Shown piece after piece: positions 22,895 to 46,552 of a stretch of 64,000 nucleotides of DNA; positions within the stretch are counted from its first letter, which is position 1, and every line of letters starts with the position of its first letter. Origin of the DNA: an uncultured Flavobacteriaceae bacterium (GTDB lineage Bacteria; Bacteroidota; Bacteroidia; Flavobacteriales; Flavobacteriaceae); contig CANNCM010000005.1 in assembly GCA_947503105.1 (NCBI GenBank), positions 1 through 64,000 of the forward strand, written 5' to 3'. The notes under the pieces were generated by a model. The model saw only the letters and a list, made by a program, of their open reading frames with translations. It had not been told where the DNA came from and did not search any database. The position numbers and the translations under genes are program-made.

Positions 22895-23050
22895 AATTTT
22901 ACAGCTTTATTTGGCTAAAATAAAAAACTTCTTATTGAATATTATACAGTAAAGCACTTAATTTTCGGACAATTCAAAATTCAAACGTTTTCGTTAATAA
23001 CTATTCTATTTTAAGTAGAAAAACTTAAGTATTAAGCAGATTTATAAAGC

Positions 23051-27436: not shown

Positions 27437-27651
27437 AAGTGCAGCTAAAATTCTAAGAAATATGTTGAGTCGCGTTTTAATAAGTCAAAAGATAGTGTAA
27501 AATTATAAAATCAAAAAACAAACAAAAAATTTAAAAGCAATTTTACAGCATGCATCATTCATTTTTTATTTCTTTGTAAAACCAAATATTGACACTGCAA
27601 TAGTTTTGCCAAACGTGTACAAAGAAAACGAATAAATAGAGTAAAGCTTCA

Positions 27652-28674: not shown

Positions 28675-28682
28675 ATAAACGC

Positions 28683-29387
28683 ATGCAATTATTTTATAAT
28701 CCCATATTACAACCCGATGAAAGTAAGTTTTGTTTTGACAAAAACGAAAGTCGTCATATTATAAAAGTATTGCGTAAAGAAATTGGAGATAATTTACTTA
28801 TAACCAATGGTTTAGGTTGTTTTTTTGAAGCCACAATTGTGTCCAATAATCAAAATAAGTGTGACGTAAAAATCAATAGCGTTACGGTTGTTCCTAGAAA
28901 GGATTACAATATACATTTGGCTGTAGCACCCACAAAAACAAATGACCGTTACGAATGGTTTCTTGAAAAAGCAACGGAGATTGGCGTGGACACCATCACC
29001 CCTATCATTTGCAGCCGGAGTGAACGAAAAGTCATCAAAGCGGAGCGCTATGAAAAAATTATACAAGCGGCAGCAAAGCAGTCGCTTAGAGCGTATTTCC
29101 CTATCTTAAATCCTGCGGTACGTTTTTCAGAATTTATAAAAAATAATACCATAAAAGAACGCTTTATTGCACATTGTTTGGAGGATCAAAAAGTGCATTT
29201 AAAAGATGCTTTTTCGATCGAGAAAGATGTTTTAATTTTGATCGGCCCCGAGGGAGATTTCACCCAAGAAGAAATCAAAATGGCACAGGAATCAGGGTTT
29301 AAAGCAGTGAGTCTTGGAGATGCCCGTTTGCGTACAGAAACTGCAGCAATAGCAGCATGCCACACTATAACACTTTGTAATGCGTAA
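28683..29387 (+). CDS. rsmE: 16S rRNA (uracil(1498)-N(3))-methyltransferase
   Basis: 'LIGPEGDFTQEEIKMAQESGFKAVSLGDARLRTETAAIAA'. Confidence 0.95.
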   Translation: MQLFYNPILQPDESKFCFDKNESRHIIKVLRKEIGDNLLITNGLGCFFEATIVSNNQNKCDVKINSVTVVPRKDYNIHLAVAPTKTNDRYEWFLEKATEIGVDTITPIICSRSERKVIKAERYEKIIQAAAKQSLRAYFPILNPAVRFSEFIKNNTIKERFIAHCLEDQKVHLKDAFSIEKDVLILIGPEGDFTQEEIKMAQESGFKAVSLGDARLRTETAAIAACHTITLCNA

Positions 29388-30024
29388 ACCTTTCTTGTTT
29401 TTAGTGGTCTTTTTTTATGCTCTTAGCAGTCAAGGGCAAGAAATTGCGGTGCTAAAATATGATGGCGGAGGCGATTGGTACAGCAACCCTACTGCATTGA
29501 AAAATTTAATCAAATTTTCGAATAAAACTATCCACACATCTATTGCGTCTCAACCTGGTGTTGTTCATCCAGAAGATCCTGCCTTGTTCAGTTATCCATT
29601 TGTACACATGACAGGCCATGGCAATGTGACCTTTTCAGATGATGCATTAAAAAATTTGAAGACGTATTTGATGGGCGGTGGTTTTTTGCATATCGACGAT
29701 AATTATGGAATGAAATCTTATATCTTACCTCAAATAAAAAAATTATTCCCCGAAAAAGAATTGAAAGAAATTTCTACTGATCATCCTATTTTTAGTATTC
29801 ACTTCAAATTTCCGAATGGATTGCCAAAAATCCATGAACACGATGGACTTCCTCCTCAAGCATTTGGACTTTTTCATGACAATAAGGTCATTTTACTTTT
29901 CACATTTGAAAGTGATCTTGGCGATGGCTGGGAAGACGCTATTGTGCACAACGATCCCGAAGATGTTCGGTTGAGTGCTCTAAAAATGGGTGCAAATATC
30001 ATCAAATATGCGTTTGAATTTTAA
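29380..30024 (+). CDS. DUF4159 domain-containing protein
   Basis: 'GGGFLHIDDNYGM' and 'HPIFSIHFKFPNGLPKI', typical of secreted flavobacterial DUF4159. Confidence 0.82.
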   Translation: MRKPFLFLVVFFYALSSQGQEIAVLKYDGGGDWYSNPTALKNLIKFSNKTIHTSIASQPGVVHPEDPALFSYPFVHMTGHGNVTFSDDALKNLKTYLMGGGFLHIDDNYGMKSYILPQIKKLFPEKELKEISTDHPIFSIHFKFPNGLPKIHEHDGLPPQAFGLFHDNKVILLFTFESDLGDGWEDAIVHNDPEDVRLSALKMGANIIKYAFEF

Positions 30025-30035
30025 GGGTAAAAGCG

Positions 30036-30542
30036 ATGCAATTAGACCATTATACTTCAAAATTTAAAAAAAATACATTTCCCCTCGTTGTGGTTACCAA
30101 TCACGTAATGCGTCCAGCAAACGTAGGAAGTATTTTTCGAGTTGCAGATGCTTTTGGAGTTGAAAAACTAATCTTAGGCGGCAGTGCAATTGAACTGAAC
30201 AGAAAAGTATGGAATACCTCTAGAGCGACAGAGAAAGTTGTGGATTTTGAACAAACTGAAAATACTGAAGAAGTTATTGGAATTTTAAAACAACAGGGGT
30301 ACACTATAATCTGTCTAGAAATCACAAAAAACAGTGAATGTATTTCTGCGCTTCAATTGAAAAGTAGTCAAAAAACGGTGCTTGTTGTAGGCAGTGAGCG
30401 CCATGGGATAGACGATGCTGTTCTAAAATATGCAGATCATGTTTATCATATTCCAATGTATGGACAAAATAGCAGCATGAATGTGGCTCAAGCAACTTCT
30501 ATTGCACTTTATGAAATCACAAAATCAATGTTGCATGTTTAA
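30036..30542 (+). CDS. TrmH/SpoU family RNA methyltransferase
   Basis: 'RPANVGSIFRVADAFGVEKLILGG' and 'NSSMNVAQATSIALYEI'. Confidence 0.93.
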   Translation: MQLDHYTSKFKKNTFPLVVVTNHVMRPANVGSIFRVADAFGVEKLILGGSAIELNRKVWNTSRATEKVVDFEQTENTEEVIGILKQQGYTIICLEITKNSECISALQLKSSQKTVLVVGSERHGIDDAVLKYADHVYHIPMYGQNSSMNVAQATSIALYEITKSMLHV

Positions 30543-31716
30543 TTCTTTGCTTTTACAAAATGACGTCCAGCAGTTTATAAAAGAGCATCTGAATACGGCT
30601 ATGGATAAATTAGCACTAAAAGGCAGTCCGTTTGATGGCATCAACAGTCCTGAACTTTTGGAGCAAATACAATCTAAGAATAAATGTAATAAGAAACTTC
30701 CCCTTTGGTTCAATACAGCAGGACTTTATTACCCCAGTAAACTAAACATTGAGCAGACGTCATCAGAAATTTCGGCGAGGTATAAAAGCCAATTGGTGCA
30801 TGGCAAAACACTACTAGATTTGACCGGAGGTTTTGGAGTCGATAGTTTTTATTTTTCAAAGATCGTTCGTACTGTTACACATTGTGAAATTGATCCTTTT
30901 TTGTCAAAAATTGCTAAACATAACTTTAAAATTTTTGGTGTAGAAAATGTAAAAACGATCGCAGTTGATGGATTGGAATATTTAACACAAAATGAAGAAA
31001 ATTTTGATTGGATTTATGTTGATCCCTCTAGAAGGGACTCAAACAAAAACAAACGTTTTTTTATAGAAGATTGCACTCCAAATGTGGCCGAACACTTGCC
31101 TCTTTTTTTTAAATATGCGGCGAAGGTTATCATAAAATTATCTCCAATGTTGGATATTCATGCAGCGCAAAAAGCATTACCTCACACAAAAGAAATTCAT
31201 GTGGTAGCCATCAAAAATGAAGTGAAAGAACTGTTGTTTGTTTTGGAAAGAGATTTCGATATGAAGCCAGAAATAAAAGCCATTAATTTAGAAACCAATC
31301 AACCAGATTTTCAGTTCAAAATAAGTGATGAAGTTGAAACAATTGTTGATTATGAAAATCCTTTAAAGTATTTATACGAACCCAATGCCGCAGTTCTTAA
31401 ATCTGGAGCTTTTAGAAGTATAGCATCACATTTTGATCTATACAAATTGGGGCAACATACACATTTGTACACCTCTTCCGAATTAAAAAAAGAATTTCCA
31501 GGAAAGATTTATATCATAAAACGAGCACTCCCCTATCACAAAAAAAAGCTAAAGTCACAGCTTAGTGGTCAAAAAGCAAATGTGAAAACAAGAAATTTTT
31601 CAGAATCTATAAGTCAATTGAAAAAGAGGTTTAAAATTAAAGATGGAGGAGACGATTTTTTGATTTTTACATCGGTCAATCACCAGAAAACAGTTATAAT
31701 CACCAGGCAATTATAA
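30535..31716 (+). CDS. Class I SAM-dependent methyltransferase with THUMP-like C-terminus
   Basis: 'LLDLTGGFGVDSFYFSK' and 'DWIYVDPSRRDSNKNKRFFIEDCTPNV'; start refined to ATG 30535. Confidence 0.85.
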   Translation: MFNSLLLQNDVQQFIKEHLNTAMDKLALKGSPFDGINSPELLEQIQSKNKCNKKLPLWFNTAGLYYPSKLNIEQTSSEISARYKSQLVHGKTLLDLTGGFGVDSFYFSKIVRTVTHCEIDPFLSKIAKHNFKIFGVENVKTIAVDGLEYLTQNEENFDWIYVDPSRRDSNKNKRFFIEDCTPNVAEHLPLFFKYAAKVIIKLSPMLDIHAAQKALPHTKEIHVVAIKNEVKELLFVLERDFDMKPEIKAINLETNQPDFQFKISDEVETIVDYENPLKYLYEPNAAVLKSGAFRSIASHFDLYKLGQHTHLYTSSELKKEFPGKIYIIKRALPYHKKKLKSQLSGQKANVKTRNFSESISQLKKRFKIKDGGDDFLIFTSVNHQKTVIITRQL

Positions 31717-31720
31717 AGCT

Positions 31721-33559
31721 CTATCCAATATAAACTATTGAAAGGGAGTCGTTCCCCTGAACAATTTCACTTTTTAATGGGTTTAAATGTAATTCGTCAT
31801 TTAAAATATATCCCATAAATGTTTGGTTGTCTTTTATAGAAAGTACAATTAATTCGTATATACTAAACTGCTTGTCATATGATTTTAACCCATAATCAGC
31901 AATAGATTTTGAACTAATTTTTAAACCTGATTCTTTGAAAAGTTTTTCAAATACATACCACAATTTTGGATTATCTGCCAACTGAGTAATAATCAAAGAG
32001 GAAAGGTCATCGCTAACAATAACCTCATTCTTGTTAAGTTCTTGTATCAAATCTTTTTTGGACCCATCATTTAGTTGTAAAATTATTCTACAAGAATCCG
32101 ATTTTTCCAATTCTTCTAGTATTGTCTTTACATAAAAAATCTGCATTAAAGAATTGGTATCTGAGACCTCATTAGATAACTTATCATCATAACCTAGATT
32201 TAGTATTATATCAAAATGATTTTCACTTATAAGGTCTCTAATTGTATCATTATTGTCTTTCTTTAGTAAAATGATATTTGATTTAATAGAGCTGTTTTTT
32301 TCAATTACTGGATTTTGTAAAACTAGAGCTTCACGAAATGCAAAACAAAAACTTGAGTCGTCAGAAAGAAAAGGAATCGCACTATTTATTATTTGTTGTC
32401 CAAGTTGCGACCAACCTAAAACGAGAACTGAGATAGTTTCTTTTTTATTTGTAGAGATTTCAGCTATTTTTATTTCGTCTAAAAATTGATCAATTTCAAT
32501 TACACTTTTTAGTTTAATTTCAAGATTGTCGTCTTCTGCTATGACTATCAAATGATCATCTTTTAATATAATGTAGTCTTTTTTTGGATTCAATAACACT
32601 TGACCGTCCGCTGTGCGAATTCCTACAAGTGTAACCTCTTGTAGCATTAACATCGCTTGTTTGAAGGTTTTTTGAGCAAGGCCATCAGAAGGGAAGAAAT
32701 ATAGTTCATCACCATCATAATCAATAAAATCTAAAACTACCGATGAGATATGCTTATTTCTAATAGATTGAGCTGTTACGCTAGAAATAATATTATCCTT
32801 GAGAACTGAGTATACAACATTTCCCTTCAATTTAGAAATAATATCTATATTTTCACCATTATTAAATTGAGCAATTATTGGAACATTTTGGTTGTTAAGA
32901 TTTTGTTTAACAGCAAGAATTGTGGTTTCAATATTAAAACTTTGTTGTATAGTATCATCCAAAATTATAACTGATTTTGAATTATTCATATTAGTTCTTG
33001 CCAAATCTTGAATGCTATAAATATCTCCTGACCTTGTTATGATTCGAATATTTTTTTGATTGGGTCTTTCGGTATTTATTATATTATTCATCTCTAAATT
33101 ATCTAGACCATTAAAGCAGAGTATTGTTGGTTTTGATTGGTTTTGATTGGCCACCTCAATCTCATCAAAGATTTTAAATATCGTAGAATTCCAACCAACA
33201 ATAATGTAATGATTTGTATCTATGACATGCGAATGACCTTTTTTTAAATCTTCAATAAAACTTGAAACTTTTGCGGCCAAAAAAGCTATTATGGTTCCAG
33301 AAAATGTAACGCTAAAAATCCAATAAATTAAAGTAACCAAACGTTCTTTAAATTCTACTCCAGACTCCTCTATTTCTAGTAATCGTTCAAGTCTATTCCA
33401 CCAAATATTAAAAAAAGAATCGTTTTCAATTAATCCTAAGCTCATTTCTACAGCAATCATCAGTAATGCAAAAACAGCACTTACGATCATTAAGAAATAA
33501 ACAAAATTTGATTTGCGGGCTATAAAATTCTCAAAATAATATCTAATATGCGTTTTCAT
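31721..33559 (-). CDS. CASTOR/POLLUX-like ion channel / TrkA-N-type protein
   Basis: N-terminal TM region, 'SVTFSGTIIAFLAAKVSSFIEDLKKGHSHVIDTNHYIIVGWNS', RCK-like domains. Confidence 0.8.
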   Translation of the reverse strand: MKTHIRYYFENFIARKSNFVYFLMIVSAVFALLMIAVEMSLGLIENDSFFNIWWNRLERLLEIEESGVEFKERLVTLIYWIFSVTFSGTIIAFLAAKVSSFIEDLKKGHSHVIDTNHYIIVGWNSTIFKIFDEIEVANQNQSKPTILCFNGLDNLEMNNIINTERPNQKNIRIITRSGDIYSIQDLARTNMNNSKSVIILDDTIQQSFNIETTILAVKQNLNNQNVPIIAQFNNGENIDIISKLKGNVVYSVLKDNIISSVTAQSIRNKHISSVVLDFIDYDGDELYFFPSDGLAQKTFKQAMLMLQEVTLVGIRTADGQVLLNPKKDYIILKDDHLIVIAEDDNLEIKLKSVIEIDQFLDEIKIAEISTNKKETISVLVLGWSQLGQQIINSAIPFLSDDSSFCFAFREALVLQNPVIEKNSSIKSNIILLKKDNNDTIRDLISENHFDIILNLGYDDKLSNEVSDTNSLMQIFYVKTILEELEKSDSCRIILQLNDGSKKDLIQELNKNEVIVSDDLSSLIITQLADNPKLWYVFEKLFKESGLKISSKSIADYGLKSYDKQFSIYELIVLSIKDNQTFMGYILNDELHLNPLKSEIVQGNDSLSIVYIG

Positions 33560-33615
33560 AAAATTTGATCCCTTAAAAATGATGGTAACTTATTTCAAAA
33601 TGTTTTTGCTAAGGC

Positions 33616-34383
33616 CTAAAATAATTTTAATTCAATTCCAAAATTCACACTATTATCGGTATTGTAAATGTCAATGTAGGGCGTTGAATGATAGCGGTGA
33701 GTCCAATCGATAAACAAATCAAGTTTATCAAGGGAATAATAGATCCTTGGTTCTAAGAAAAGACGATAATCTGTTGTGTTTGAAGTATTAATTTGGTAAT
33801 ATAAAGCTAGATTAATGAAGAACTTTTCAGAAAATTTATGTTTCATAAATGTGCTAAGGCTATATCGCCAGTTGTACACTTGTTGTTGAGTACTTAAATT
33901 TTTGTCATAGAGTTCATCTTCAAAAAACACGCCCGCAGAAAGATCCCAATAATTGTCTCCTTTTTGGAGCATTCTGTGGCGATATCCTCCACCAGAAATA
34001 TAACGGTGATTCATGCGCAGGGATTTAATGTTTTGTACTTGAAGGAATCCAAATACAGAATTAACTCCTATACTGTAGTTATAACGAAATTGACCTGTAA
34101 AATCTGAAGAAATTTCGCTCCCACTTTCTTTTATATAATCATAGTTTAGCAGTAATCGGAATAAATTTTTGTTTACAGATTTTGAGATTTGATGTGCCGT
34201 ACTAAATTGGATTAAATCGATGTTTCCAAAATTCAAATCGCCTTGAAAATTAAGGCTGTAAGAAACGCTTTCATCAAGATCAGACAACATATTTTCTGTA
34301 TTGATAATGGTTTGTGAAGAGACAACTAGACCAAAAAAAAGAAATGAAAAAAGAACAGAATTTCGATTCTGGAGCAGATACAT
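33616..34383 (-). CDS. DUF481-like outer-membrane beta-barrel protein
   Basis: Signal peptide, repeated amphipathic beta strands ending '..SVNFGIELKLF'. Confidence 0.65.
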   Translation of the reverse strand: MYLLQNRNSVLFSFLFFGLVVSSQTIINTENMLSDLDESVSYSLNFQGDLNFGNIDLIQFSTAHQISKSVNKNLFRLLLNYDYIKESGSEISSDFTGQFRYNYSIGVNSVFGFLQVQNIKSLRMNHRYISGGGYRHRMLQKGDNYWDLSAGVFFEDELYDKNLSTQQQVYNWRYSLSTFMKHKFSEKFFINLALYYQINTSNTTDYRLFLEPRIYYSLDKLDLFIDWTHRYHSTPYIDIYNTDNSVNFGIELKLF

Positions 34384-34417
34384 ATTTTAATGTTAAATTG
34401 GTTAAAAAAGTAATAAC

Positions 34418-36373
34418 TTATGTTAATGTTTTTAAATGTTCATAAATCATTACCATTGCTAAAGTATCTAATTCACAGTACTTTAACAAAGATTTTTTTA
34501 TAATTTCTCTTTCCTGAAATGTCATATCCACGAATTGAAGTTTTGAATAGGCCGTTAGGGCTGCACCACCATCTGAGATCGTTTCTAATCCAGACATAAA
34601 TTCATCTAATTGTTCTTCATTATATTCATTAAATATGGGCGGCAGTAATTTATAAGGATTCTTGACTTTTTGATCTTCCTGTTGTATCCATACATGATGA
34701 TCTTTAAAATTTTTACTGGTCATATTGATCTGTGATATGGGCTGAGAGTATTTATGTTTTAAAAAATCGCAAGAATTCAAAATAGCCGGTAACACAGCTT
34801 TAATAGAGTTTGACCCCTTGGTTAATGGATTGTAATAATAATCCAAAATAACAATTCTTAGATCAACCATTGGTCTTGGTGTTACCCAGGGTTTTGGATC
34901 ATTTCTTCGTGGCGTTGTGATGCTTTTGATAAACTCAATTAAGTCCTGTTTTTGAGAATACGAACTGACTTCGAGTTGATCTTTTATTGAATTAAGAATA
35001 CTATTTTCATGCGATGCAAATCTAAATATAGTTCCTTTATCGTTTTCAAGCGTATTTTTGAGAGCAGATACAAACTTAAAGTTAGGAAACTCACCTGGGG
35101 TTGTATTGATATACTCAGAAGCATGCTTTATGGTACCATCGGCATAATATATGTGATGAGAAAACTGAAAAGCAACTTGTTCGTAGGGATGTCTGCCTTT
35201 GTTAAAAGGCAAAGCAACTGCACTAGTTTCAAAATCAATAAAATGTAATGGAAAAACCCAAGACTCCATTTCTTTTTTTAGGCCATCCAACTCCACAAAG
35301 GGTTGAGATTGAGGTTCTAAAGTTTTTTGAACTTGAATCCAGCGTCTTTCTCTAGAACTCATAGCGTCTGGCTCATCTATAACTTTGAAATCATCTTGAG
35401 TTAGTTGATCTAAAAATAATCGGTTTTGTTCTAAAAGTTTTTGGCCTCTGAAATTCCAAACCTCGAATATATTTGGACGCTCAAAATCAGTATCTGACCA
35501 CTGGTGTTGTTTAGAAAAACAAAACTCAAATCCAGAATTAAATCCTGCTTCTTTGGTCGAATGGTCTATTTTATATTCACAGGACTTACAACGGCTATAG
35601 CTGGTGGGCCAGTTCAAATAGGTGTGATTTTGATAACTTGTCTTCAAAAGCGGAACAGCTTTAGAAAAAACCAAATCATCGCTATAAGAAAATTCGTCGT
35701 TAATTATGCTATCCACAATACCAGAAACATTAACTTCAGAAAGAACAGATGTGTTTTGTGCTTGATCTGGGGTTATTCTAACTTCTACATCCTGTCGAGA
35801 ATCCCCTACATTTGGTAGTCTAAACATTTGATTTAGTCCATCAATTGTTGCAACTTTTGACTTATCGGCCATTAAAAAAAAGGAATCAAAAGTAAAATGA
35901 GGAAAGCATTGTTTGGCAACATACGTTTGAAACGCAATATCGAACAAGTAGGGTCGCCAACTGCTTCTTATATTACCCCTAGTCCCAATAAAAGTATCTG
36001 TCACTGTGGAATCAAAAGATTTCGCTTTAACCTCTATAAGGCGAATTTGATTTCCTTTTTTTACCAAAATATCAGTCATTACAAAAAGACCGTCATTCAA
36101 AAAAGCGGCCTCATATATTATAACCTCATCTCGTTTTAAAAGCTCTAGAGTTTGCTCGTGTGCTTGTTGATAGGCGCCGTAGGGAGCATCGATAAAATGG
36201 CCCTCGGGGTACAATAATCGTGATAGAGCTTCAACTTGAAACCCTCCTTCTGCTAAGGCTGCAAGAAAGGTATTATCATCGTCTTTATTTTTATAAGAAT
36301 CATCTCCAGTGAAATACAACTTGTTTGGACATGAAAGGCCAATTTTAAAGCGAGATTTTGAGAGTACTTTCAT
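34418..36373 (-). CDS. DUF2779 protein: PD-(D/E)XK-like N-terminus plus RNase-H/DEDD-like domain
   Basis: 'RLIEVKAKSFD' (E-x-K), 'HFIDFETSAVALPFNKGRHPYEQVAFQFSHH' (D-x-E), C-terminal 'YCELDTLAMVMIYEHL'. Confidence 0.82.
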   Translation of the reverse strand: MKVLSKSRFKIGLSCPNKLYFTGDDSYKNKDDDNTFLAALAEGGFQVEALSRLLYPEGHFIDAPYGAYQQAHEQTLELLKRDEVIIYEAAFLNDGLFVMTDILVKKGNQIRLIEVKAKSFDSTVTDTFIGTRGNIRSSWRPYLFDIAFQTYVAKQCFPHFTFDSFFLMADKSKVATIDGLNQMFRLPNVGDSRQDVEVRITPDQAQNTSVLSEVNVSGIVDSIINDEFSYSDDLVFSKAVPLLKTSYQNHTYLNWPTSYSRCKSCEYKIDHSTKEAGFNSGFEFCFSKQHQWSDTDFERPNIFEVWNFRGQKLLEQNRLFLDQLTQDDFKVIDEPDAMSSRERRWIQVQKTLEPQSQPFVELDGLKKEMESWVFPLHFIDFETSAVALPFNKGRHPYEQVAFQFSHHIYYADGTIKHASEYINTTPGEFPNFKFVSALKNTLENDKGTIFRFASHENSILNSIKDQLEVSSYSQKQDLIEFIKSITTPRRNDPKPWVTPRPMVDLRIVILDYYYNPLTKGSNSIKAVLPAILNSCDFLKHKYSQPISQINMTSKNFKDHHVWIQQEDQKVKNPYKLLPPIFNEYNEEQLDEFMSGLETISDGGAALTAYSKLQFVDMTFQEREIIKKSLLKYCELDTLAMVMIYEHLKTLT

Positions 36374-36404
36374 GTTTATTTTTAATAAAGAAAAGTAATT
36401 ATAT

Positions 36405-36731
36405 TTATCTTAATCTTTTAATACGCTCGCGGCAGCGCTTAATTTTCTCACGAATATCTTTGATTTTTTCGCGACTTCGAGCTATTTTATCTCTTTCTCT
36501 TTCAATCTCTCTTGAATAGCGTTCCCAATCCCTCTTTTTCTGAGCGCGAATACTGTGCTTAATGGCAGTAGAGGACGCAGATTTCAATCGGCGAGAATAA
36601 TGATCTGCATCTCGACTTTTACGGATTCGGATTTTGGCTATGTCGCCTCTGTAATCTGTAATTCTAGATTTTTCACGGTCGATATCTCTTTTATAACCTT
36701 CAATCTGGCGTTTTACACTATCAATACTCAT
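36405..36731 (-). CDS. Hypothetical basic coiled-coil protein
   Basis: 108 aa almost entirely K/R/E/D helix with arginine-rich repeats; co-directional with neighbours. Confidence 0.6.
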   Translation of the reverse strand: MSIDSVKRQIEGYKRDIDREKSRITDYRGDIAKIRIRKSRDADHYSRRLKSASSTAIKHSIRAQKKRDWERYSREIERERDKIARSREKIKDIREKIKRCRERIKRLR

Positions 36732-36743
36732 ATTATATTAATT

Positions 36744-37499
36744 TTAAAGATTATACATGATAGGATTGGAAGCGCCGTGCTTTTTCTTATGAGCAACGGA
36801 TTTGTTAAGAAATAAATTTCTAATTTTTTCTGGTGCCACATGGCCATCAAAACCATAGCCCGTATAGGTTTGCCCTGCTTTTTTTGTACCAGGATTGTAT
36901 TGTCGCTTAATTGGATACCATTTTTCAACTTCAAAAACTTCAACTATCAAACCTTTAAACTCACTTAAGACATATTTAATACCAACTAATCTAGTTTTAT
37001 CCATACGCCAACGTTCTTTAGTGGCTAGATACAATTTGTCCATTCCTGATGCTCTTTTGTAAGAACTATTGATATTGATTATAATGGTATCGGAAGGTAT
37101 CGAATTTAATGGTATTGCATTATATTTTCGTTTTACTTCTTCTGAAGACATCAAACCATTTTCAATGGAATTTATACCACCTTGGATATTGCCACTAACA
37201 AAGTCGTTAAAAGAAGGAATATATCTAAATGTATCAATCAAACTAGCCTCAATTTGATAGGCCGTTTTTTCGTTTAATCCATGACGAACAATAACATGAT
37301 CCACCGTTTTATTCTTTTTCAATATGGCTTGAATCTCATCTAATTTATCTGTCCCTTTTTTTCCTTGTTTAGCCTCATCTAAATGGTCAAAAACGCGGTT
37401 GCCTTCCCCTTTTCCAACATAAAAAGGTGTTTTGGTTTCTGGATTGATTAATAAATAGACATAATATTTTAATTCTAATTTTGTTTTTTCATCAAACAT
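36744..37499 (-). CDS. GIY-YIG nuclease family protein (LEM-3-like)
   Basis: 'YYVYLLINPETKTPFYVGKGEGNRVFDH' (GIY-YIG-type beta hairpin) and 'QIEASLIDTFRYIPSFND' (E followed by N). Confidence 0.82.
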   Translation of the reverse strand: MFDEKTKLELKYYVYLLINPETKTPFYVGKGEGNRVFDHLDEAKQGKKGTDKLDEIQAILKKNKTVDHVIVRHGLNEKTAYQIEASLIDTFRYIPSFNDFVSGNIQGGINSIENGLMSSEEVKRKYNAIPLNSIPSDTIIININSSYKRASGMDKLYLATKERWRMDKTRLVGIKYVLSEFKGLIVEVFEVEKWYPIKRQYNPGTKKAGQTYTGYGFDGHVAPEKIRNLFLNKSVAHKKKHGASNPIMYNL

Positions 37500-37896
37500 A
37501 TCTGTTATTTTTTATTATTAATTCAATTTTTTTGGCATCCGAAATAGAAAAATTTTCAGCTCGTATACCTTTTGATCCCTTACTTGAAATAATGATGGTT
37601 GAATTGATCAATCTTCTATCAATTTTAACATAAGAAATATCACTAAAAGACAAAAAGGATCGATCAACGCCAATGAGATATTTATTACGTTTTAGGTAGG
37701 TAACCCCATCTTGATTAATAATTAATTTGTCGGGGGTTAAAATACTTCCGCCCAAAATAATTTTTGATGAAAACGTATAAGAAAATGATTCCTTAGAACG
37801 ACTGTTTGCTCCGATTCCTGAGGGCTTTTGCCCACAACTAGGGCAAAAGTTCTCATTCCCTGTAAGGTTATAACCGCACGAGGCACAAAATCCCAT
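37492..37896 (-). CDS. Zinc-ribbon protein with possible PH-like domain
   Basis: 'CASCGYNLTGNENFCPSCGQ' zinc ribbon at N-terminus; overlaps the GIY-YIG ORF by 8 bp. Confidence 0.75.
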   Translation of the reverse strand: MGFCASCGYNLTGNENFCPSCGQKPSGIGANSRSKESFSYTFSSKIILGGSILTPDKLIINQDGVTYLKRNKYLIGVDRSFLSFSDISYVKIDRRLINSTIIISSKGSKGIRAENFSISDAKKIELIIKNNRYV

Positions 37897-37908
37897 GGTG
37901 GTACATTG

Positions 37909-38268
37909 TTATTGTCTAGAAGCTTTCCCTAGAGTTAGACCATTATCCATGAGGGTTTTTGAGGATTTATCTTTGATTTGAACTTTGACCCCGTAGGTGT
38001 TTTCAAACAAATCCTCCACATCTCCAACTTTCATACTGCCTTTAATTTTAACATCTTCTTTTGAAGTGGTATTGACTTTTTTTGCTGTTTTTTTGTTAAG
38101 TGCAGCTAAGGTCAAATCACCATCAGCAATCATATTTCCTTTGTAAAATACCAAGGAAAGATTAAACGAAGATTTAAAATCTTTAGAAATTGTTTTTAAT
38201 TTTTTGTTTGGCGCAATTGAAAATTCCGCATTATTAAAATGATCTTTTATTGAATCAAATAGTCCCAT
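37909..38268 (-). CDS. Small two-repeat protein, paralogue 3
   Basis: 'KKLKTISKDFKSSFNLSLVFYKGNMIADGDLTLAAL...VGDVEDLFENTYGVKVQIKDKSSKTLMDNGLTLGKA'; aligns by eye to the two neighbours. Confidence 0.75.
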   Translation of the reverse strand: MGLFDSIKDHFNNAEFSIAPNKKLKTISKDFKSSFNLSLVFYKGNMIADGDLTLAALNKKTAKKVNTTSKEDVKIKGSMKVGDVEDLFENTYGVKVQIKDKSSKTLMDNGLTLGKASRQ

Positions 38269-38283
38269 AATGTATTTTTGTAT

Positions 38284-38682
38284 TTATTTCCACTCTCCTT
38301 TTATACAACCTTCAGCTTCTTTTTCTCTATTTAGAGCTGTAAGGGTTAAATTATCTGTTCTTCCACCATTTGAATAATAATATCCTCCATCACTTGTTCT
38401 CCAGGTTATCTGTACGAACAATCCAAATATTTCGGAAAACTCTTGCTCAACAGTCTTAACTTTTTTACGACCTGTAAGTGAGATTTTGCCAGAGCCTATC
38501 TTCTCCCTAACTTCTGATAGTGTCTTTTCACTATCTAGTTGTGGTAATTCCCCACCCTTTTTTGCAATTTTTGCTACATCAGATGAGTGAAAGTGAATTG
38601 ATAGAAAAGGAAAGTGTTTGTTAAACTCTTTTTTTATAGTCTTTAATTTTTTAGAGCCTGTTGTTGTAACTTCTCTTGCCAT
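38284..38682 (-). CDS. Small two-repeat protein, paralogue 2
   Basis: 'KKLKTIKKEFNKHFPFLSIHFHSS...KKVKTVEQEFSEIFGLFVQITWRTS...NLTLTALN'. Confidence 0.75.
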   Translation of the reverse strand: MAREVTTTGSKKLKTIKKEFNKHFPFLSIHFHSSDVAKIAKKGGELPQLDSEKTLSEVREKIGSGKISLTGRKKVKTVEQEFSEIFGLFVQITWRTSDGGYYYSNGGRTDNLTLTALNREKEAEGCIKGEWK

Positions 38683-38738
38683 AATAGTATTTTTAAAAAA
38701 TCAGCAGGTTCAATAAAACCTACTGATTAATGAATAGC

Positions 38739-39044
38739 TTATAATTTCCCTGCTTGTGTTAAGGTCATGCTGTTATCGGCCAATTTGGTGTCATCAGCAT
38801 TTGAAATTTGTACTTTGATTCCAAATTCTTCCATGAAATAACGCTCAACATTGGCTACTCGACTTCTAGCACCCAAATCCAACTCTCCACCAGCACTATC
38901 TGTTTTGGATAGTTCGCTGATTTTTGTTTTTTCATCAGCAAATTTATTGCCCTTGTAAATTCGAATATTACAATTAAATTCTTCTGAAAATTGTCTCTTA
39001 ATACTCTTAACAGAGCTTGCTTTAGTAACTCTTATAGTTGCCAT
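38739..39044 (-). CDS. Small two-repeat protein, paralogue 1
   Basis: 'SSVKSIKRQFSEEFNCNIRIYKGNKFADE...SRVANVERYFMEEFGIKVQISNADDTKLADNSMTLTQAGKL'. Confidence 0.75.
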   Translation of the reverse strand: MATIRVTKASSVKSIKRQFSEEFNCNIRIYKGNKFADEKTKISELSKTDSAGGELDLGARSRVANVERYFMEEFGIKVQISNADDTKLADNSMTLTQAGKL

Positions 39045-39154
39045 AATTTGATAAATTAGTTAATTAATTTTCCTACTTCTTTTTTGTGTTGTTTTTCGGA
39101 TTATTCCAACTTATTTTCTTAAAACAATAAATATATAAAATAAATGTGATAATT

Positions 39155-39187
39155 TTGATACATAATTGATACATAATTGATAGATAA
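39155..39187. promoter_or_regulatory. Three tandem 11-bp direct repeats, candidate operator
   Basis: TTGATACATAA / TTGATACATAA / TTGATAGATAA read directly, between divergent genes. Confidence 0.7.
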
Positions 39188-39193
39188 ATAATA

Positions 39194-40426
39194 ATGATAG
39201 AACTACTAAAAGAAATGACACAAAGCAATCTTGGTTACAAAATAAGATCACGAGGAGACTGTGAAAAGTTGTCAGAGCTAATTTTAATAAAAACAGCTAA
39301 AGAAATAAGTTACAATACATTGCGTCGTTTTTTTGGAATTTCTAAAGGAACAACGCCTCAATTAAAAACTTTAAATACTCTTGCCCAATTTAATGGATTT
39401 CCCTCTTTTGCAGAGTTTACAATTCATTATCCAAATAGATTTAGTTGGTCGTTAAGAGAAAAAGCATACAAACTTATAAATCAGGAAAATAAAACAGAGC
39501 TCGTAAATTTTTTAAATAACTTAGAAGAAATTCAGAAAGATGTTTTAGATCTCATTGTTTCCATAATAAGAGAACTTATAATTAATAAAGAAATTAGAAT
39601 TTTAAAGGAACTTTTTAATCTTGAACTATTTAATCCAAACAAAACAAATTATTCTGAACTTCTACACATAGGTAATTCTGTTGGATTATTATTTCGTAAA
39701 CAACAAATTGATTATTTAGAATTTAAAAATTGTATGTACTTCACATCAACTATGTTCACACTGTTTGTAGATTATTCGAGTTTAAATAGAAACTATGGTA
39801 AATTCTCACAATATATTTACAAAACAACAAATGAAAAAGAGCTAAAGCTATTTAGCGGCTTAGTTTTGCAATTAAAAAACCTGTTGAATAATAAAACTAC
39901 TATAAATAATTTTCAACACATGATTTCAAAACAAACTCATCCCATTCTCTTAAGTCGATACATGAGTATATACATATTAAATTTAGAAAAACAACAAATG
40001 ATAGAAGCACTAGATTCTTATAAAAAAGAGTATTGTAAAGCCAATAATTTAGAGCATATATATGAACTAATGTTTACTTCAATTTTGACAAAAAATTTTG
40101 AACTGATGAAGTGGTTAACTATAAATTTTAAAGTTAACCAGACGAGCTCAAACAACTACAGTGAATGGCACAATAGTTTATTCAAACTTGTTAACTTGTT
40201 TTTAGATTTTTATAACAAAAAAAAATCCAGTGCTAAAAAACAAATGACTTTATTAGAAAACTTTACAATAAGATACAGCTATGAATCATTTATTGAAATC
40301 TTTATTTGCACAATAAATTACCATCTAAAAATTGAACAAGAAAAGCAATTAAAAAGGTATCTGAAAATAAGAGACGAACTAAAATACCCCTATTTTTCAA
40401 ACAACTATTTGATAAATTACTTTTAA
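39194..40426 (+). CDS. Hypothetical protein, possible transcriptional regulator (HTH-like N-terminus)
   Basis: N-terminal 'AKEISYNTLRRFFGISKGTTPQLKTLNTLAQFNGFPSFAEF' looks HTH-like; rest is helical; divergent to the small-protein cluster. Confidence 0.6.
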   Translation: MIELLKEMTQSNLGYKIRSRGDCEKLSELILIKTAKEISYNTLRRFFGISKGTTPQLKTLNTLAQFNGFPSFAEFTIHYPNRFSWSLREKAYKLINQENKTELVNFLNNLEEIQKDVLDLIVSIIRELIINKEIRILKELFNLELFNPNKTNYSELLHIGNSVGLLFRKQQIDYLEFKNCMYFTSTMFTLFVDYSSLNRNYGKFSQYIYKTTNEKELKLFSGLVLQLKNLLNNKTTINNFQHMISKQTHPILLSRYMSIYILNLEKQQMIEALDSYKKEYCKANNLEHIYELMFTSILTKNFELMKWLTINFKVNQTSSNNYSEWHNSLFKLVNLFLDFYNKKKSSAKKQMTLLENFTIRYSYESFIEIFICTINYHLKIEQEKQLKRYLKIRDELKYPYFSNNYLINYF

Positions 40427-40595: not shown

Positions 40596-41498
40596 TTATT
40601 CGCAATAGTCTTCAAAATAATCTTCTAATTCTTCTTCTGAGTTGAGGACTAGTGTTTGTGATTGTTGAGAGTTTTCTGAATAATATTCTACTGTTACTGG
40701 AAATTGAAGTTCAAAATCAAATTCACAATCGTCCATATCATCACAATTTTCTGAGTACCATTCTTCGATATATCCTACAAGCGCTTCTTCACTATTAACA
40801 GTAATAACATCTCCGTTTGAATGTACTAAAGATATAGGATAAACTAAATCAAAACAATCATTTTCAAACCAACCATCTTCGTGGTCACCTTCTGTATCAC
40901 AATCCTCTAAAAAGTCATTTTCATCAAATCCATCAAGACCTGCATAACAATCGTTTGGATAAACTAAAACTATGGTCTGTCCATCGGCGTTTGTGATTTC
41001 TACACACACGGGATCATAAAGCTCATAACACATATTGTCCTCTTCTAGATCAAATTCGCAATCCTCCAAGAGACTATCAAAAACTTCATCATTTTCAATC
41101 GTAAATGTTTCAATGGAGTCATTTTCGGTATTAAAAACCAAAACATCGAAAGGATATGATACGTCGTCTATATACAAATCATCATTAGATTCAATTAATA
41201 TTTCGACTAATTCTTCAATGGAGTTAATTGTAACTATTGAATTATCATTCATTTGAAAATCAATTGGAAATACAAACTCAAAACAAAAGTCTAAAGCCAT
41301 ATTTCCACTTGGATTTTGGCTTTCATCTGTATTCCCATTAGCATCAAATTGATCCATCATTTCGGACATTGCTCTCATTAAAATGGAGGTGTTGGCGTCC
41401 TCATTTTGGTTAATTTCTTCAATATTATCACATGTCAACAATGTTAATGATATACAGATAAAAAATAATATAGAATTTTTGAGTTTAAATATTTTCAT
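40596..41498 (-). CDS. Acidic, Cys-containing repeat lipoprotein
   Basis: Lipobox 'LTLLTCDN'; repeated 'CFEFVFPIDFQ../CFDLVYPISLVH../FELQFPVTVEYY' blocks and a Kazal-like 'CYELYDPVCVEITNADGQ..YPNDCYA'. Confidence 0.7.
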   Translation of the reverse strand: MKIFKLKNSILFFICISLTLLTCDNIEEINQNEDANTSILMRAMSEMMDQFDANGNTDESQNPSGNMALDFCFEFVFPIDFQMNDNSIVTINSIEELVEILIESNDDLYIDDVSYPFDVLVFNTENDSIETFTIENDEVFDSLLEDCEFDLEEDNMCYELYDPVCVEITNADGQTIVLVYPNDCYAGLDGFDENDFLEDCDTEGDHEDGWFENDCFDLVYPISLVHSNGDVITVNSEEALVGYIEEWYSENCDDMDDCEFDFELQFPVTVEYYSENSQQSQTLVLNSEEELEDYFEDYCE

Positions 41499-41641
41499 TT
41501 TTTTAGGTTTAATATTGGTTTTTGTACGAGTTTTAATTAAAAAAATCTAAAATTTCAAAAGCTTTCGCAATTTATAAAATATTCTCATAGACCATATGTA
41601 ATTTTTTTTAAAATTATAAAAATATTAACAACATAAGAACA

Positions 41642-41672
41642 AAATAACCCCCTGAATTTCAGAGGGTTATTT
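41642..41672. terminator. Terminator-like hairpin
   Basis: AAATAACCC..CTGAATTTCAG..GGGTTATTT. Confidence 0.75.
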
Positions 41673-41690
41673 CTATTTGATTTAATATAT

Positions 41691-42383
41691 TTATTGTTTA
41701 CTGCTTATGATATTTAATGAAAAATCTTTGGTTAATTCATACCCTCCACGTTCTTGTAATAATTTTACAAATCGACTGTTTTTTCCCATTTTATCATATA
41801 GCATAAGATGATCAACAGTATCTTTTCCTGTCAATCCAATCCAGTGTGTAGCACCGTTTGGCAGACCAATATCATAGGTTCCAAATCCTACAACACGATC
41901 TTTAAATTCTTCTTTAAATTCATCGACGATTTTATCGTGAGCAACTTTAAAAGCTGCTGGATCTTCCGGAATAATATCCCAAATATGAACTTCAGGATTG
42001 GTTTCCAAGTTACCTTCTTTCCAGCTCATCATTCGTCCGGAATAGGAGACGCCCCAATCTTCAATATAGTTCCCCATTTTGGCCCAAAAGGCAGCAGTTT
42101 TGTCAGAAGCCCAAAATTCATCTGGAATCATTTTTTCTCCTAAGGTGTATAGGAAGACCAAACGATGCGTCATTCCATTGCTGTCGCCACCAGTAAATCT
42201 TTCTAATACAATTGCGCCTTTATTCATTTCAACATCGGCAAAAACTTCTTCAAAAGCTTCTTTAATGTCTTTTTGAGTAAATGGCTTAACTTTAACTTCT
42301 ATGGCAGAAAATGCCATGGTTTGTGCGCTGGTCCATTGAATTGTAAAACAAATCAATAAAAGTGATAAAAATAATTTTTTCAT
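41691..42383 (-). CDS. Hypothetical secreted protein
   Basis: Signal peptide 'MKKLFLSLLLICFTIQWTSAQ'; intact 230-aa ORF. Confidence 0.65.
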   Translation of the reverse strand: MKKLFLSLLLICFTIQWTSAQTMAFSAIEVKVKPFTQKDIKEAFEEVFADVEMNKGAIVLERFTGGDSNGMTHRLVFLYTLGEKMIPDEFWASDKTAAFWAKMGNYIEDWGVSYSGRMMSWKEGNLETNPEVHIWDIIPEDPAAFKVAHDKIVDEFKEEFKDRVVGFGTYDIGLPNGATHWIGLTGKDTVDHLMLYDKMGKNSRFVKLLQERGGYELTKDFSLNIISSKQ

Positions 42384-42616
42384 AATTAGTTAATTTAAAT
42401 TTCTTAAAAATAAAAAAAATTACTTGCAAAAAAAAATCGATAATAAAATTTAAAGATTAATTAATAAATTACGACTTAAAGTTAATTTGATGCGACTAAA
42501 ACATTAAAAATTGTACCATGCCATCAAAAAACAAACCATGAATTTCAGAACGTTATTTGTGATCGCACTAGGATTATTTTATGATCCTTCGCGCTCCGCG
42601 CTGAAAATAACACAAA

Positions 42617-42649
42617 CAAAAAAACGCTCAAGCAAGCTTGGCGTTTTTT
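42617..42649. terminator. Terminator-like hairpin downstream of tRNA-Arg
   Basis: AAAAAACGCtCAAGC-aa-GCTTGGCGTTTTTT. Confidence 0.8.
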
Positions 42650-42670
42650 ATTAGTTGTACTATTTATTCG

Positions 42671-42744
<74 letters not shown>

Positions 42745-42769
42745 ATTCAAGGACAATAGTGTCCTGAAG

Positions 42770-42844
42770 TCGGGGTGGCAGGATTCGAACCTGCGACCTC
42801 CGCGTCCCAAACGCGGCGCGATAACCGGGCTACGCTACACCCCG
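42770..42844 (-). tRNA. tRNA-Pro (TGG)
   Basis: CGGGGTGTAGCGTAGCCCGGTTATCGCGCCGCGTTTGGGACGCGGAGGTCGCAGGTTCGAATCCTGCCACCCCGA; anticodon TGG. Confidence 0.96.
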
Positions 42845-42886
42845 AATTTGGTTATCATTACAATACATTTATCTATACAATACTTG

Positions 42887-42961
42887 TCGGGGTGGCAGGA
42901 TTCGAACCTGCGACCTCCGCGTCCCAAACGCGGCGCGATAACCGGGCTACGCTACACCCCG
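42887..42961 (-). tRNA. tRNA-Pro (TGG), identical second copy
   Basis: Sequence identical by eye to 42770-42844. Confidence 0.96.
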
Positions 42962-42983
42962 TATTGTGTTGATTAATGACTTG

Positions 42984-43067
42984 CGGAGAGACCGGGATTC
43001 GAACCCGGGCAACACTTACGCGTTGACAGATTAGCAATCTGCTCCATTACCACTCTGGCACCTCTCC
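42984..43067 (-). tRNA. tRNA-Ser (GCT)
   Basis: GGAGAGGTGCCAGAGTGGTAATGGAGCAGATTGCTAATCTGTCAACGCGTAAGTGTTGCCCGGGTTCGAATCCCGGTCTCTCCG; anticodon GCT. Confidence 0.95.
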
Positions 43068-43169
43068 TTAAATTTATGAACTTGTGCAATAAAATTGCGG
43101 ATGCAAATGTAGCTTTTCATTATCAAGAACGCAAACTATTTTTTTACTTTTTTAATTCCTGTTTTATTC

Positions 43170-45218
43170 CTATTCTGGGTATTCTATACGAAGATGGTAC
43201 ATGTTGGCTAGCTTGTGTTTCAAAACTTTCTTTATCGATTCTATTTCTTTGAAAGTGATGTTGGCGTTCAAAAACTGTGCAGCTTCTATTTGATTGGCGA
43301 TAATTGTATCTACAAATTCATTGATTTTTGTAGAGGTTGGATCTTTCAAACTTTTTGATGCAGCTTCTACACTATCACACATCATCAAAATGGCAGTCTC
43401 TTTACTGAATGGTTTTGGTCCGTTGTACATATAATCGGAGGGGGCAAATTCCGTAGTAATTTCCATTTGTTTATTATAAAAATAACGCACATAACTTGTG
43501 CCGTGATGCGTACGAATAAAATCAATTACACGATCTGGTAATTTGTTTTTCTTTGCTATTTCTACTCCGTTGATGACATGATTTACAATAATTTGAGCAC
43601 TTTCTTTTGGCGATAATTCATCGTGTGGATTAGTCCCTGTAGATTGGTTTTCTGTAAAATATGTAGGGTTAGACATTTTCCCGATGTCGTGATACAATGC
43701 ACCTACCCGAACCAACATGGCATTGGCACCAATCTCGTTCGCTGAAGCTTCAGCAAGGTTGGCAACATTTAAGGAATGATGAAACGTTCCTGGAGCTTTG
43801 TCCGAAAGTTCTTTGAGGAGTTTTGAATTTGTGTCTGAAAGTTCTAATAATGAGACATCTGAAACTAATCCAAAAAGTTTTTCGTAGGCATAAATTAAGG
43901 GTTGAACAAATAATGTCGCCAAACCACAAAGTACAAACAATAAAAAGTTTTCCCACTTTAAACCATCAATACTCCCTTCGTGGATCACATAAAATGAAAA
44001 ATAGGAAATGATATAAATTAGAGTAATTTGTCCTACAGAAATAAATAAATTAGCACGTTTATATAGTTCTGATACCGTAAGAATTGTAACGATTCCTGCA
44101 ATAATTTGAAGAAACATATACTCATAGTTGTTGGCTACAACAAAACCCAAAAGCAGTACGGTTACAACATGAGTAAAGAGCCCTAGTCGGGCATCGAAAA
44201 AAGCTTTAAGTACCAAAGGTAAAATACACAAGGGCACTGCGTATATGTATGCAGAATTGTAGTTAACCACTAGAGTTGTGAGTAATACCATCAAAGCAAT
44301 ATTGAAAAATATAAAGGTAACTTTCGTATTGTTAGAAAAAATATCGTCTCTGTATTTTCTCAAAAAAAGCAAAAGCATCAAAAGCGCTAAGGCCACCAAA
44401 ACGGTGTATGCTACCAAAATCCAGACATAATTTGCTTCTGTCCATACTTGAGATTCATATTCAGATTCCAATGATTTCAAAATAGAGAGCTTATCGCCTT
44501 GAACAACTTCTCCTTTAGAAACAATTAAAGTGCCTTTATCTACACGACCACGTACCAAAACAATTCGATCCAAGCGATCTTTCAAAGCACTTTCTGAAAG
44601 TGATGTATTGTATTTGGAATTTGGCTCAACAACATCATAAAATAAAGACAAATAGGCGGGTAAAAATTCGGCATATTCAGAGTCTTCTATTTTGGAGGTG
44701 ATATAGGATTTTAAATCTGTCTGAACAAAAAATTGACTGTAAGCTACTGTTTTACTTTGGATGTTACCAATTAAGACAGATATAGTTTGCTCATTATCAA
44801 TGTTATATCTTTCCGATAGCACCCCAACAGTATAAAGCTCTGAAAGTAATTTTTCACCAAACTGATAGAGGTTATTCTTTAATTTTTGTTCCGTAACTTC
44901 AAAAAAACTACGCTCAAAAACGGCTTTGTAGCGATTTGAAATTTGCGTCACCTTTGCCGTGTCTACTTCGAAAAATACAGGAGATTCATTTGCGATTTGT
45001 TGTCGTTCTTCTTTTAATTCTTCGTTTGATTTTTGGATGGCAAAATCAAAAGGCGCATACAAATTTTCGGATTGCCAAGGCTTTCCTTTTTCAAAACTAT
45101 ACCGAAATGTTCCACTTTTTGGGAATAAATAAACAATCAAAAATGTGGTTGCTACAAATAAAAATACTTTATAAAGTAAATTGTGATTTTTGTAAAATTT
45201 ATTTAAAACTGAATCCAT
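43170..45218 (-). CDS. 7TM-HD family phosphohydrolase (PgpH-like)
   Basis: N-terminal extracellular domain, TM helices, HD domain 'GTFHHSLNVANLAEASANEIGANAMLVRVGALYHDIGKM'. Confidence 0.93.
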   Translation of the reverse strand: MDSVLNKFYKNHNLLYKVFLFVATTFLIVYLFPKSGTFRYSFEKGKPWQSENLYAPFDFAIQKSNEELKEERQQIANESPVFFEVDTAKVTQISNRYKAVFERSFFEVTEQKLKNNLYQFGEKLLSELYTVGVLSERYNIDNEQTISVLIGNIQSKTVAYSQFFVQTDLKSYITSKIEDSEYAEFLPAYLSLFYDVVEPNSKYNTSLSESALKDRLDRIVLVRGRVDKGTLIVSKGEVVQGDKLSILKSLESEYESQVWTEANYVWILVAYTVLVALALLMLLLFLRKYRDDIFSNNTKVTFIFFNIALMVLLTTLVVNYNSAYIYAVPLCILPLVLKAFFDARLGLFTHVVTVLLLGFVVANNYEYMFLQIIAGIVTILTVSELYKRANLFISVGQITLIYIISYFSFYVIHEGSIDGLKWENFLLFVLCGLATLFVQPLIYAYEKLFGLVSDVSLLELSDTNSKLLKELSDKAPGTFHHSLNVANLAEASANEIGANAMLVRVGALYHDIGKMSNPTYFTENQSTGTNPHDELSPKESAQIIVNHVINGVEIAKKNKLPDRVIDFIRTHHGTSYVRYFYNKQMEITTEFAPSDYMYNGPKPFSKETAILMMCDSVEAASKSLKDPTSTKINEFVDTIIANQIEAAQFLNANITFKEIESIKKVLKHKLANMYHLRIEYPE

Positions 45219-45370
45219 TTAAACATTTCATTAATACCAACAGCCATGCCATTGCAACGATATCAAAAGTAATAAAAAGAACTTCAACAAACGTGTAAAA
45301 ATCAATAATCGTCTCTATTATCTGCTAAATTTTATTTACATTAGCGAGAGAAAAATTATAACTATTTTTG

Positions 45371-46546: not shown

Positions 46547-46552
46547 CACTCA

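Follow-up and report, generated by a model that had tools for sequence, protein, structure and literature searches.

At positions 31721-40426 of the 64,000-nucleotide stretch analysed here (the window; positions 1 to 64,000 of contig CANNCM010000005.1, assembly GCA_947503105.1, from an uncultured Flavobacteriaceae bacterium) lies a variable island of nine co-directional genes and a divergent helix-turn-helix (HTH)-type regulator, about 9 kb in all. It encodes a GIY-YIG nuclease of the PD-T4-3/CMoRE family, a predicted nuclease of the DUF2779 family, three small two-repeat proteins (S1, S2 and S3), a zinc-ribbon protein (ZnPH), an Arg/Lys-rich coiled-coil protein, a DUF481-type protein and a membrane channel protein. 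The reading we favour, tentatively and at somewhat under an even chance, is that the locus is a multi-gene defence module with a CMoRE-type effector, a DUF2779 helper, the S proteins, ZnPH and the coiled coil as control or scaffold, and a membrane arm; such a module would probably be envelope-linked. A defence-type module had already been proposed from the letters of the DNA in what we call the sequence-only reading, and it is homology and gene neighbourhood, not experiment, that support the idea. The label 'undescribed' given to the genes at that stage is wrong for the nuclease and right for the assembly, as far as the literature was searched; that search returned no described locus of KAP plus OmpA or ubiquitin-like proteins. 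In what follows, G-numbers denote genomes (G000 being the window's own, from which the comparisons start) and L-numbers denote loci.

Locus organisation and variability

The sequence-only reading had delimited a cassette of seven co-directional open reading frames (ORFs) on the minus strand, at 34418-39044. These ORFs are all present at those positions, with gaps of 12-56 bp and with the ZnPH and GIY-YIG genes overlapping by 8 bp, but the limits were drawn too narrowly: the same-strand run goes on past the DUF2779 gene, with the DUF481 gene 34 bp downstream and the channel gene 56 bp further, and the variable unit is 31721-40426. In the congener G047, nothing but three unrelated genes separates the homologues of window genes 21908-31716 from those of 40596-47302 (68-96% identical at the protein level), and DNA similarity ends near 31670 and restarts near 40603. 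Because the flanks match while the interior is replaced, we regard 31721-40426 as one variable segment. Its GC content is 0.311 against a mean of 0.349, the third-lowest of 111 overlapping 8.7-kb stretches in the window.

No integrase or transposase was found among the island ORFs, and a repeat search of the flanks returned no long direct or att-like repeat. There are tRNA genes at 42670-43067, 2.2 kb from the island, and simple insertion at a tRNA gene was rejected for this reason. NCBIfam assigns no family to any of the ten island genes. Outside the island, the G047 homologue of window gene 30481-31716 is broken into two frames (L073:8712-9949), which may reflect a pseudogene or an assembly error.

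A CMoRE-type nuclease lacking the acidic lid

The 251-aa GIY-YIG protein (36744-37499, minus strand) matches LEM-3_GIY-YIG in Pfam (E 5.3e-14) and the PADLOC model of PD-T4-3 (E 2.5e-47; residues 8-250 against model positions 12-253 of 256). Two crystal chains, 9u75 (E 1.6e-29) and 9u7u (E 1e-23), align to residues 10-250, and the alignment to positions 19-259 of 9u75 spans both the GIY-YIG domain and the C-terminal modification-sensing domain. The active-site residues Y13, Y15, Y27, G29, R35 and E84 are kept, with the motif pattern Y13xY15...Y27xG29, and are invariant in the three module copies (window, G072 and L054); at the first Gly position of the motif the window copy has Lys, the other two Gly. 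Identity to the E. coli plasmid copies of PD-T4-3/CMoRE is about 34%. The GIY-YIG fold recognised in the sequence-only reading is borne out, but the nuclease is not an unknown one: apart from the acidic loop discussed below, all sequence tests place it in the known PD-T4-3/CMoRE family.

Liu et al. 2026 gave PD-T4-3 the new name CMoRE and describe it as a single-component type IV restriction enzyme for DNA carrying 5-hydroxymethylcytosine (5hmC) or glucosyl-5hmC (5ghmC), which it degrades, blocking T-even phages (PMC12923530); an independent study found that PD-T4-3 acts against Tevenvirinae in its native E. coli host (PMC12409345). An acidic autoinhibitory loop is found in most, but not all, CMoRE members (PMC12923530), and neutralising this lid turns the E. 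coli enzyme toxic. While full-length two-domain homology and the retained motif tyrosines, Arg and Glu liken the window protein to CMoRE, it differs both in lacking the acidic lid and in lying within a recurrent multi-gene locus instead of standing as a single gene. Here ADDDDLLSNK of 9u75 aligns to the basic or neutral AKQGKKGTDK, and the closest module copies, those of G072 and L054, likewise have a non-acidic stretch there. The missing acidic loop is what suggests that restraint of the nuclease could come from partner proteins.

Relatives of the nuclease occur in 185 plasmid records. The protein also matches phrog_5356, a PHROG family without assigned function (E 4.2e-47), so that phage genomes carry relatives too; a scan of the viral-contig collection gave no match.

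The DUF2779 protein

The DUF2779 protein (34418-36373, minus strand, 651 aa) matches PF11074 (E 1.8e-21) and has all the family motifs. The 'EVKAKS' and 'FIDFET' motifs that the sequence-only reading had picked out fall on invariant family positions. In an alignment of ten members, D101 and E114-V-K116 of the N-terminal, Cas4-like PD-(D/E)XK part and D380-F-E382 and Y632...D636 of the C-terminal, RNase H-like DEDDy-type part are invariant, as are C15, C262, C265 and C285, which are probable Fe-S ligands. A one-plus-three cysteine arrangement is typical of Cas4-type Fe-S nucleases. By its motifs, all of them intact, the protein is a predicted nuclease that joins a Cas4-like PD-(D/E)XK part to a DEDDy-type part. 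A 2014 classification placed DUF2779 among the 3'-5' exonucleases, in RNase H-like clade F.17, with a PD-(D/E)XK partner (PMC3985635).

Among the 151 genomes of the bacterial family that form our distribution sample, 18 carry DUF2779. Long-type relatives, 44-51% identical to the window protein, have defence genes as neighbours: in L034 (4699-13227) the gene adjoins JetA, JetC and JetD of Wadjet type I and a KAP NTPase, in L039 (10181-15965) the Drt3a/Drt3b pair of DRT3 lies directly upstream, with a similar pair in L040 (10316-16063), and in L037 the gene adjoins a PDC-S37/Hhe helicase. From these neighbourhoods the family looks defence-associated in its own right and may be a recurrent companion of defence systems. 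The window gene differs from these relatives in that it adjoins small-protein genes rather than Wadjet, DRT3 or helicase systems. In G072, DUF2779 is found only as a 156-aa N-terminal remnant (L033:19141-19611 = L052:141-611), 49% identical over 153 residues, and the rest of the gene was not found within 14 kb. DUF2779 is a looser companion of the small proteins than are ZnPH and the GIY-YIG nuclease.

Recurrence of the gene set

Within the 151 genomes, the small proteins, full-length ZnPH and the full-length GIY-YIG nuclease each occur only in G000 and G072, four other genomes having nuclease fragments or partial matches. With G000 as the starting point, the probability that a given gene has this one genome as its only further carrier is about 1/150 (naive figure 8.8e-5). 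In G072, which belongs to another genus, small proteins, ZnPH and nuclease all lie within 4.4 kb; its locus (L033) runs from a KAP NTPase through S1, a 215-aa protein, an OmpA-type part, S3, ZnPH and a basic repeat protein to the GIY-YIG nuclease, which is followed by two DUF4230 proteins, a 208-aa protein without assignment, an ion channel, DUF481 and the DUF2779 remnant. DUF481 and DUF2779 are neighbours in both window and G072. A further scan of GTDB genomes gave eight loci, among them L054 from another order (Salibacteraceae), in which KAP, GIY-YIG, S1, an OmpA-type protein, S3, a PH-type protein that has no zinc ribbon and a cut coiled coil lie within 4.7 kb. Co-occurrence elsewhere, which the sequence-only reading had left to neighbourhood analysis, thus holds for the small proteins, ZnPH or PH-type protein and full-length nuclease, together in G072 and L054, but not for DUF2779, which is reduced to its remnant in G072 and is otherwise found with other defence systems.

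The remaining loci are more varied. In L053 (Flavobacteriaceae) the regulator lies divergent from KAP, S1 and S3; L055 has TerB, KAP, S1, an OmpA-type protein and a coiled coil; S proteins, accompanied or not by an OmpA-associated domain, occur in L057, L058, L059 and L060; and in G530, S1 and S3 adjoin a voltage-gated channel with six transmembrane segments (L102:4570-5397, Ion_trans E 8.5e-42) and a MORN/aspartyl-protease protein. Judged by gene content across these loci, the constant part is S1, usually with S3, while nucleases, KAP and channels vary. The G530 locus is present on two near-identical contigs of one assembly (L102:4570-7004, L103:6791-9156).

The KAP NTPases of the related loci match models of PifA, QatA and PDC-S20. 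As in the defence systems built on such proteins, a KAP NTPase is present in L033, L053, L054 and L055, where it adjoins S1; unlike in those systems, this island has no KAP gene and the partners differ. The N-terminal domain common to the OmpA-type proteins falls in no Pfam family; by eye it is similar to the C-terminal part of the KAP protein of L055, a match to PDC-S57, and the two domains may be related. Separately, a common domain was seen at the C-terminus of this PDC-S57-matching KAP NTPase (L055:5606-7369) and in a 298-aa protein (L104:4469-5365). In Zorya, ZorAB is an envelope-anchored sensor, and the OmpA/MotB-type peptidoglycan-binding domain of L054 matches ZorB models; no ZorA, ZorC or ZorD was seen, however, and the window has no OmpA protein.

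The recurrence bears directly on a more prosaic explanation, that of an ordinary defence island in which a stand-alone CMoRE and a stand-alone DUF2779 nuclease lie beside an unrelated small-protein operon without cooperating. We consider this tenable, if rather doubtful. In its favour, defence genes cluster generally, CMoRE acts as a single component (PMC12923530), the surroundings of DUF2779 relatives are highly varied and several S loci are without both nucleases. Independence is harder to reconcile with S proteins, ZnPH and the full-length nuclease occurring in just two of 151 genomes, the same two for all of them and at one locus in each, with the return of S proteins and nuclease in another order, with the DUF481/DUF2779 neighbours that window and G072 have in common, and with the overlap of the ZnPH and nuclease genes.

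The small two-repeat proteins

S1 (38739-39044, 101 aa), the first gene of the run, is followed on the minus strand by S2 (38284-38682, 132 aa) and S3 (37909-38268, 119 aa). That they are three two-repeat paralogues, as had been proposed, is confirmed by repeats within S1 and within S2 and by matching halves among all three that beat at least 499 of 500 shuffles; the halves of S3 show no direct match to each other, and each matches the corresponding halves of S1 and S2. S3 is 76% identical to the G072 copy, and S1 is 82-84% identical to copies in G072, L053 and L054. The small proteins have no family in Pfam, NCBIfam or PADLOC and no useful PHROG family, and are found in about 1% of the Bacteroidota genomes sampled. 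No match at E 1e-3 was obtained in phage, plasmid or viral-contig collections; an origin from phages or plasmids was rejected, the two matches at a loose limit (E 5-6) being chance. A profile search of the Protein Data Bank (PDB) returned nothing significant.

AlphaFold2 models of S1 and S3 (predicted local distance difference test, pLDDT, 83.1 and 76.8) each show two beta-alpha-beta-alpha units, joined in S3 by a low-confidence linker. Foldseek searches of the PDB with the two models yield hardly anything but linear di-ubiquitin, ISG15 and further ubiquitin-like proteins, with weak matches (E at least 0.011 for S1 and at least 0.026 for S3) and whole-chain template modelling (TM) scores of at most about 0.4; the two sets of matches are not independent, as the models share sequences. 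A search of viral models gave local matches of 40-50 residues to ubiquitin-like domains at 2-3 Å. The models have one N-terminal strand fewer than ubiquitin. A ferredoxin-like (beta-alpha-beta)x2 fold was set aside in favour of a ubiquitin-like one because no such fold appears among the best 50 Foldseek matches and because the S3 repeats are parted by the low-confidence linker. A four-repeat relative (L059:7576-8190) exceeds the Pfam Ubiquitin_2 cut-off (25.6 against 23.1 bits, E 1.7e-5), which is reached by none of the 18 aligned small-protein members, the window's own included. The C-termini read AGKL, GEWK and ASRQ, with no Gly-Gly. Taken together, models and sequences weakly suggest, as a lead of low certainty, that the small proteins are ubiquitin-like but not conjugated.

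The best viral-model matches of S1 are small jumbo-phage proteins (Erwinia phage Ea35-70 and others) that share no sequence similarity with it, at probabilities up to 0.99 and TM scores of about 0.5, and a Serratia phage protein annotated as a putative toxin is also among the matches. Lone S2-like genes without a nuclease (L062, L063 and L065, in other Bacteroidota) adjoin universal-stress, CBS, LOG-type, CRP-type and Hsp20-like genes.

A further parallel is BilABCD, a bacterial ISG15-like conjugation system. The likeness lies in a tandem ubiquitin-like repeat protein, so classed by similarity of modelled fold only, within a putative defence operon; the differences are that no E1, E2 or JAB-type domain occurs among the ten island genes and that the small proteins lack the C-terminal Gly-Gly. 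We give a modest chance to the more specific idea that S1 and S3 are non-conjugated tandem ubiquitin-like adaptors at the core of an undescribed modular immune system which, with a PH-type membrane protein and a KAP/OmpA-type sensor or a channel, release a CMoRE-type nuclease whose autoinhibitory loop they have replaced.

The N-terminal amphipathic helix of S3 is conserved, with a hydrophobic moment of 0.64-0.75 in all five homologues against a 95th percentile of 0.56, and membrane contact of S3 is therefore suggested. This helix also agrees with a second alternative, an envelope or ion-stress module in which envelope damage is sensed and answered by the small ubiquitin-like proteins together with the channel, DUF481, DUF4230 and OmpA-type proteins, the nucleases being passengers or a means of self-killing. 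Three different ion-channel families adjoin S proteins (window, G072 and G530), OmpA domains sit on the KAP-associated protein and lone S2-like genes lie near universal-stress, CBS and Hsp20-like genes. We nevertheless think such a module unlikely: a patchy spread and replacement in the congener better fit mobile conflict genes than a housekeeping stress response, and the nuclease active sites are intact.

Proposed mechanism

We tentatively propose the following for the favoured multi-gene defence module. The locus would be a horizontally exchanged anti-phage or anti-mobile-element module, its genes forming one operon under the control of the divergent HTH-type regulator. The C-terminal domain of the CMoRE-type nuclease would recognise modified cytosine in incoming DNA, which the nuclease would cut, and the DUF2779 protein might then degrade the cut ends through its predicted PD-(D/E)XK and 3'-5' exonuclease activities. 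The small proteins, ZnPH and the basic coiled coil could assemble into an accessory complex, in all probability fixed to the envelope, that either restrains the nuclease or brings it to incoming DNA and that would do, in this clade, the job of the acidic lid in the stand-alone enzymes. The membrane arm would consist of the channel and DUF481 proteins.

Several points weigh against this model. Defence is inferred, and since E. coli CMoRE functions on its own the partners may be irrelevant. The small proteins are linked to the nuclease at three loci, while no GIY-YIG gene is in view at five S loci (L053, L055, L057, L058 and L060), and DUF2779 otherwise occurs without small proteins. This genome's locus has neither KAP nor the OmpA-type protein (Pfam finds no KAP among the island genes, and no relative of the G072 KAP protein was found in the whole genome), so that the set must be modular or else the copy here incomplete. 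A DNA-repair or DNA-uptake cluster, with the two nucleases acting on the cell's own DNA, would suit the Cas4-like and DEDDy exonuclease parts, which are also repair-type folds, but is highly improbable given that the island has no recombinase, helicase or competence gene, that CMoRE relatives are restriction enzymes and that the cluster is absent from the congener.

If the defence-module model is correct, a restriction enzyme taken for a single-gene system is in one branch part of a regulated, probably envelope-linked multi-gene module, which would show how a dangerous nuclease can be kept safe when the acidic lid is missing. Bacterial conflict loci would also gain a double ubiquitin-like family that has no conjugation enzymes, making a role without conjugation testable, and DUF2779, a large and unstudied two-nuclease family, gains concrete defence neighbourhoods.

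Accessory and regulatory genes

ZnPH (37492-37896, minus strand, 134 aa) combines a zinc ribbon (CxxC...CxxC) with a possible bacterial PH-like domain; its matches to Zn_Ribbon_1 (E 1.4e-4) and bPH_3 (E 0.064) are both under the curated cut-offs, and full-length homologues at the same locus are 58-61% identical. The Arg/Lys-rich protein (36405-36731, minus strand, 108 aa; K15 R24) is a predicted coiled-coil hairpin. Coiled-coil-like proteins adjoin the small proteins in L055, L057 and, cut, in L054, at 19-26% identity, a weak homology given their low complexity; matches to Phage_scaffold, SMC and LmuB/JetC were rejected as composition-driven.

The DUF481-type, outer-membrane-like protein (33616-34383, minus strand, 255 aa; Pfam DUF481 E 8.5e-10) is 39% identical to L033:18051-18809 of the G072 locus, which there adjoins the DUF2779 remnant. 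The last gene of the run encodes a CASTOR/POLLUX-type (RCK/TrkA-like) membrane channel protein (31721-33559, minus strand, 612 aa; Castor_Poll_mid E 6.1e-18) and lies inside the variable segment; the G072 locus has a different ion channel at the equivalent place (L033:16848-17996).

The divergent regulator (39194-40426, plus strand, 410 aa), separated from S1 by 149 bp, has no Pfam or NCBIfam family; by eye, it begins with a stretch similar to the HTH-like region of many Bacteroidota proteins, whose match to it is confined to that region. In the divergent promoter region lie three tandem copies of TTGATACATAA (39155-39187; tandem repeat score 59, 95% matches), a candidate operator of the regulator; no similar repeat is evident in L053. 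The L053 homologue (25%, E 1e-20) is divergent from the KAP-S1-S3 genes, and a further homologue, in G124, is divergent from a 135-aa protein that by eye resembles the OmpA-associated domain. A second copy of the regulator, 36% identical, is found on contig 12 of the window's own genome (L090:5994-7947), where it adjoins a small lipoprotein-like gene whose family is also present near the regulator in L053 (3516-4193).

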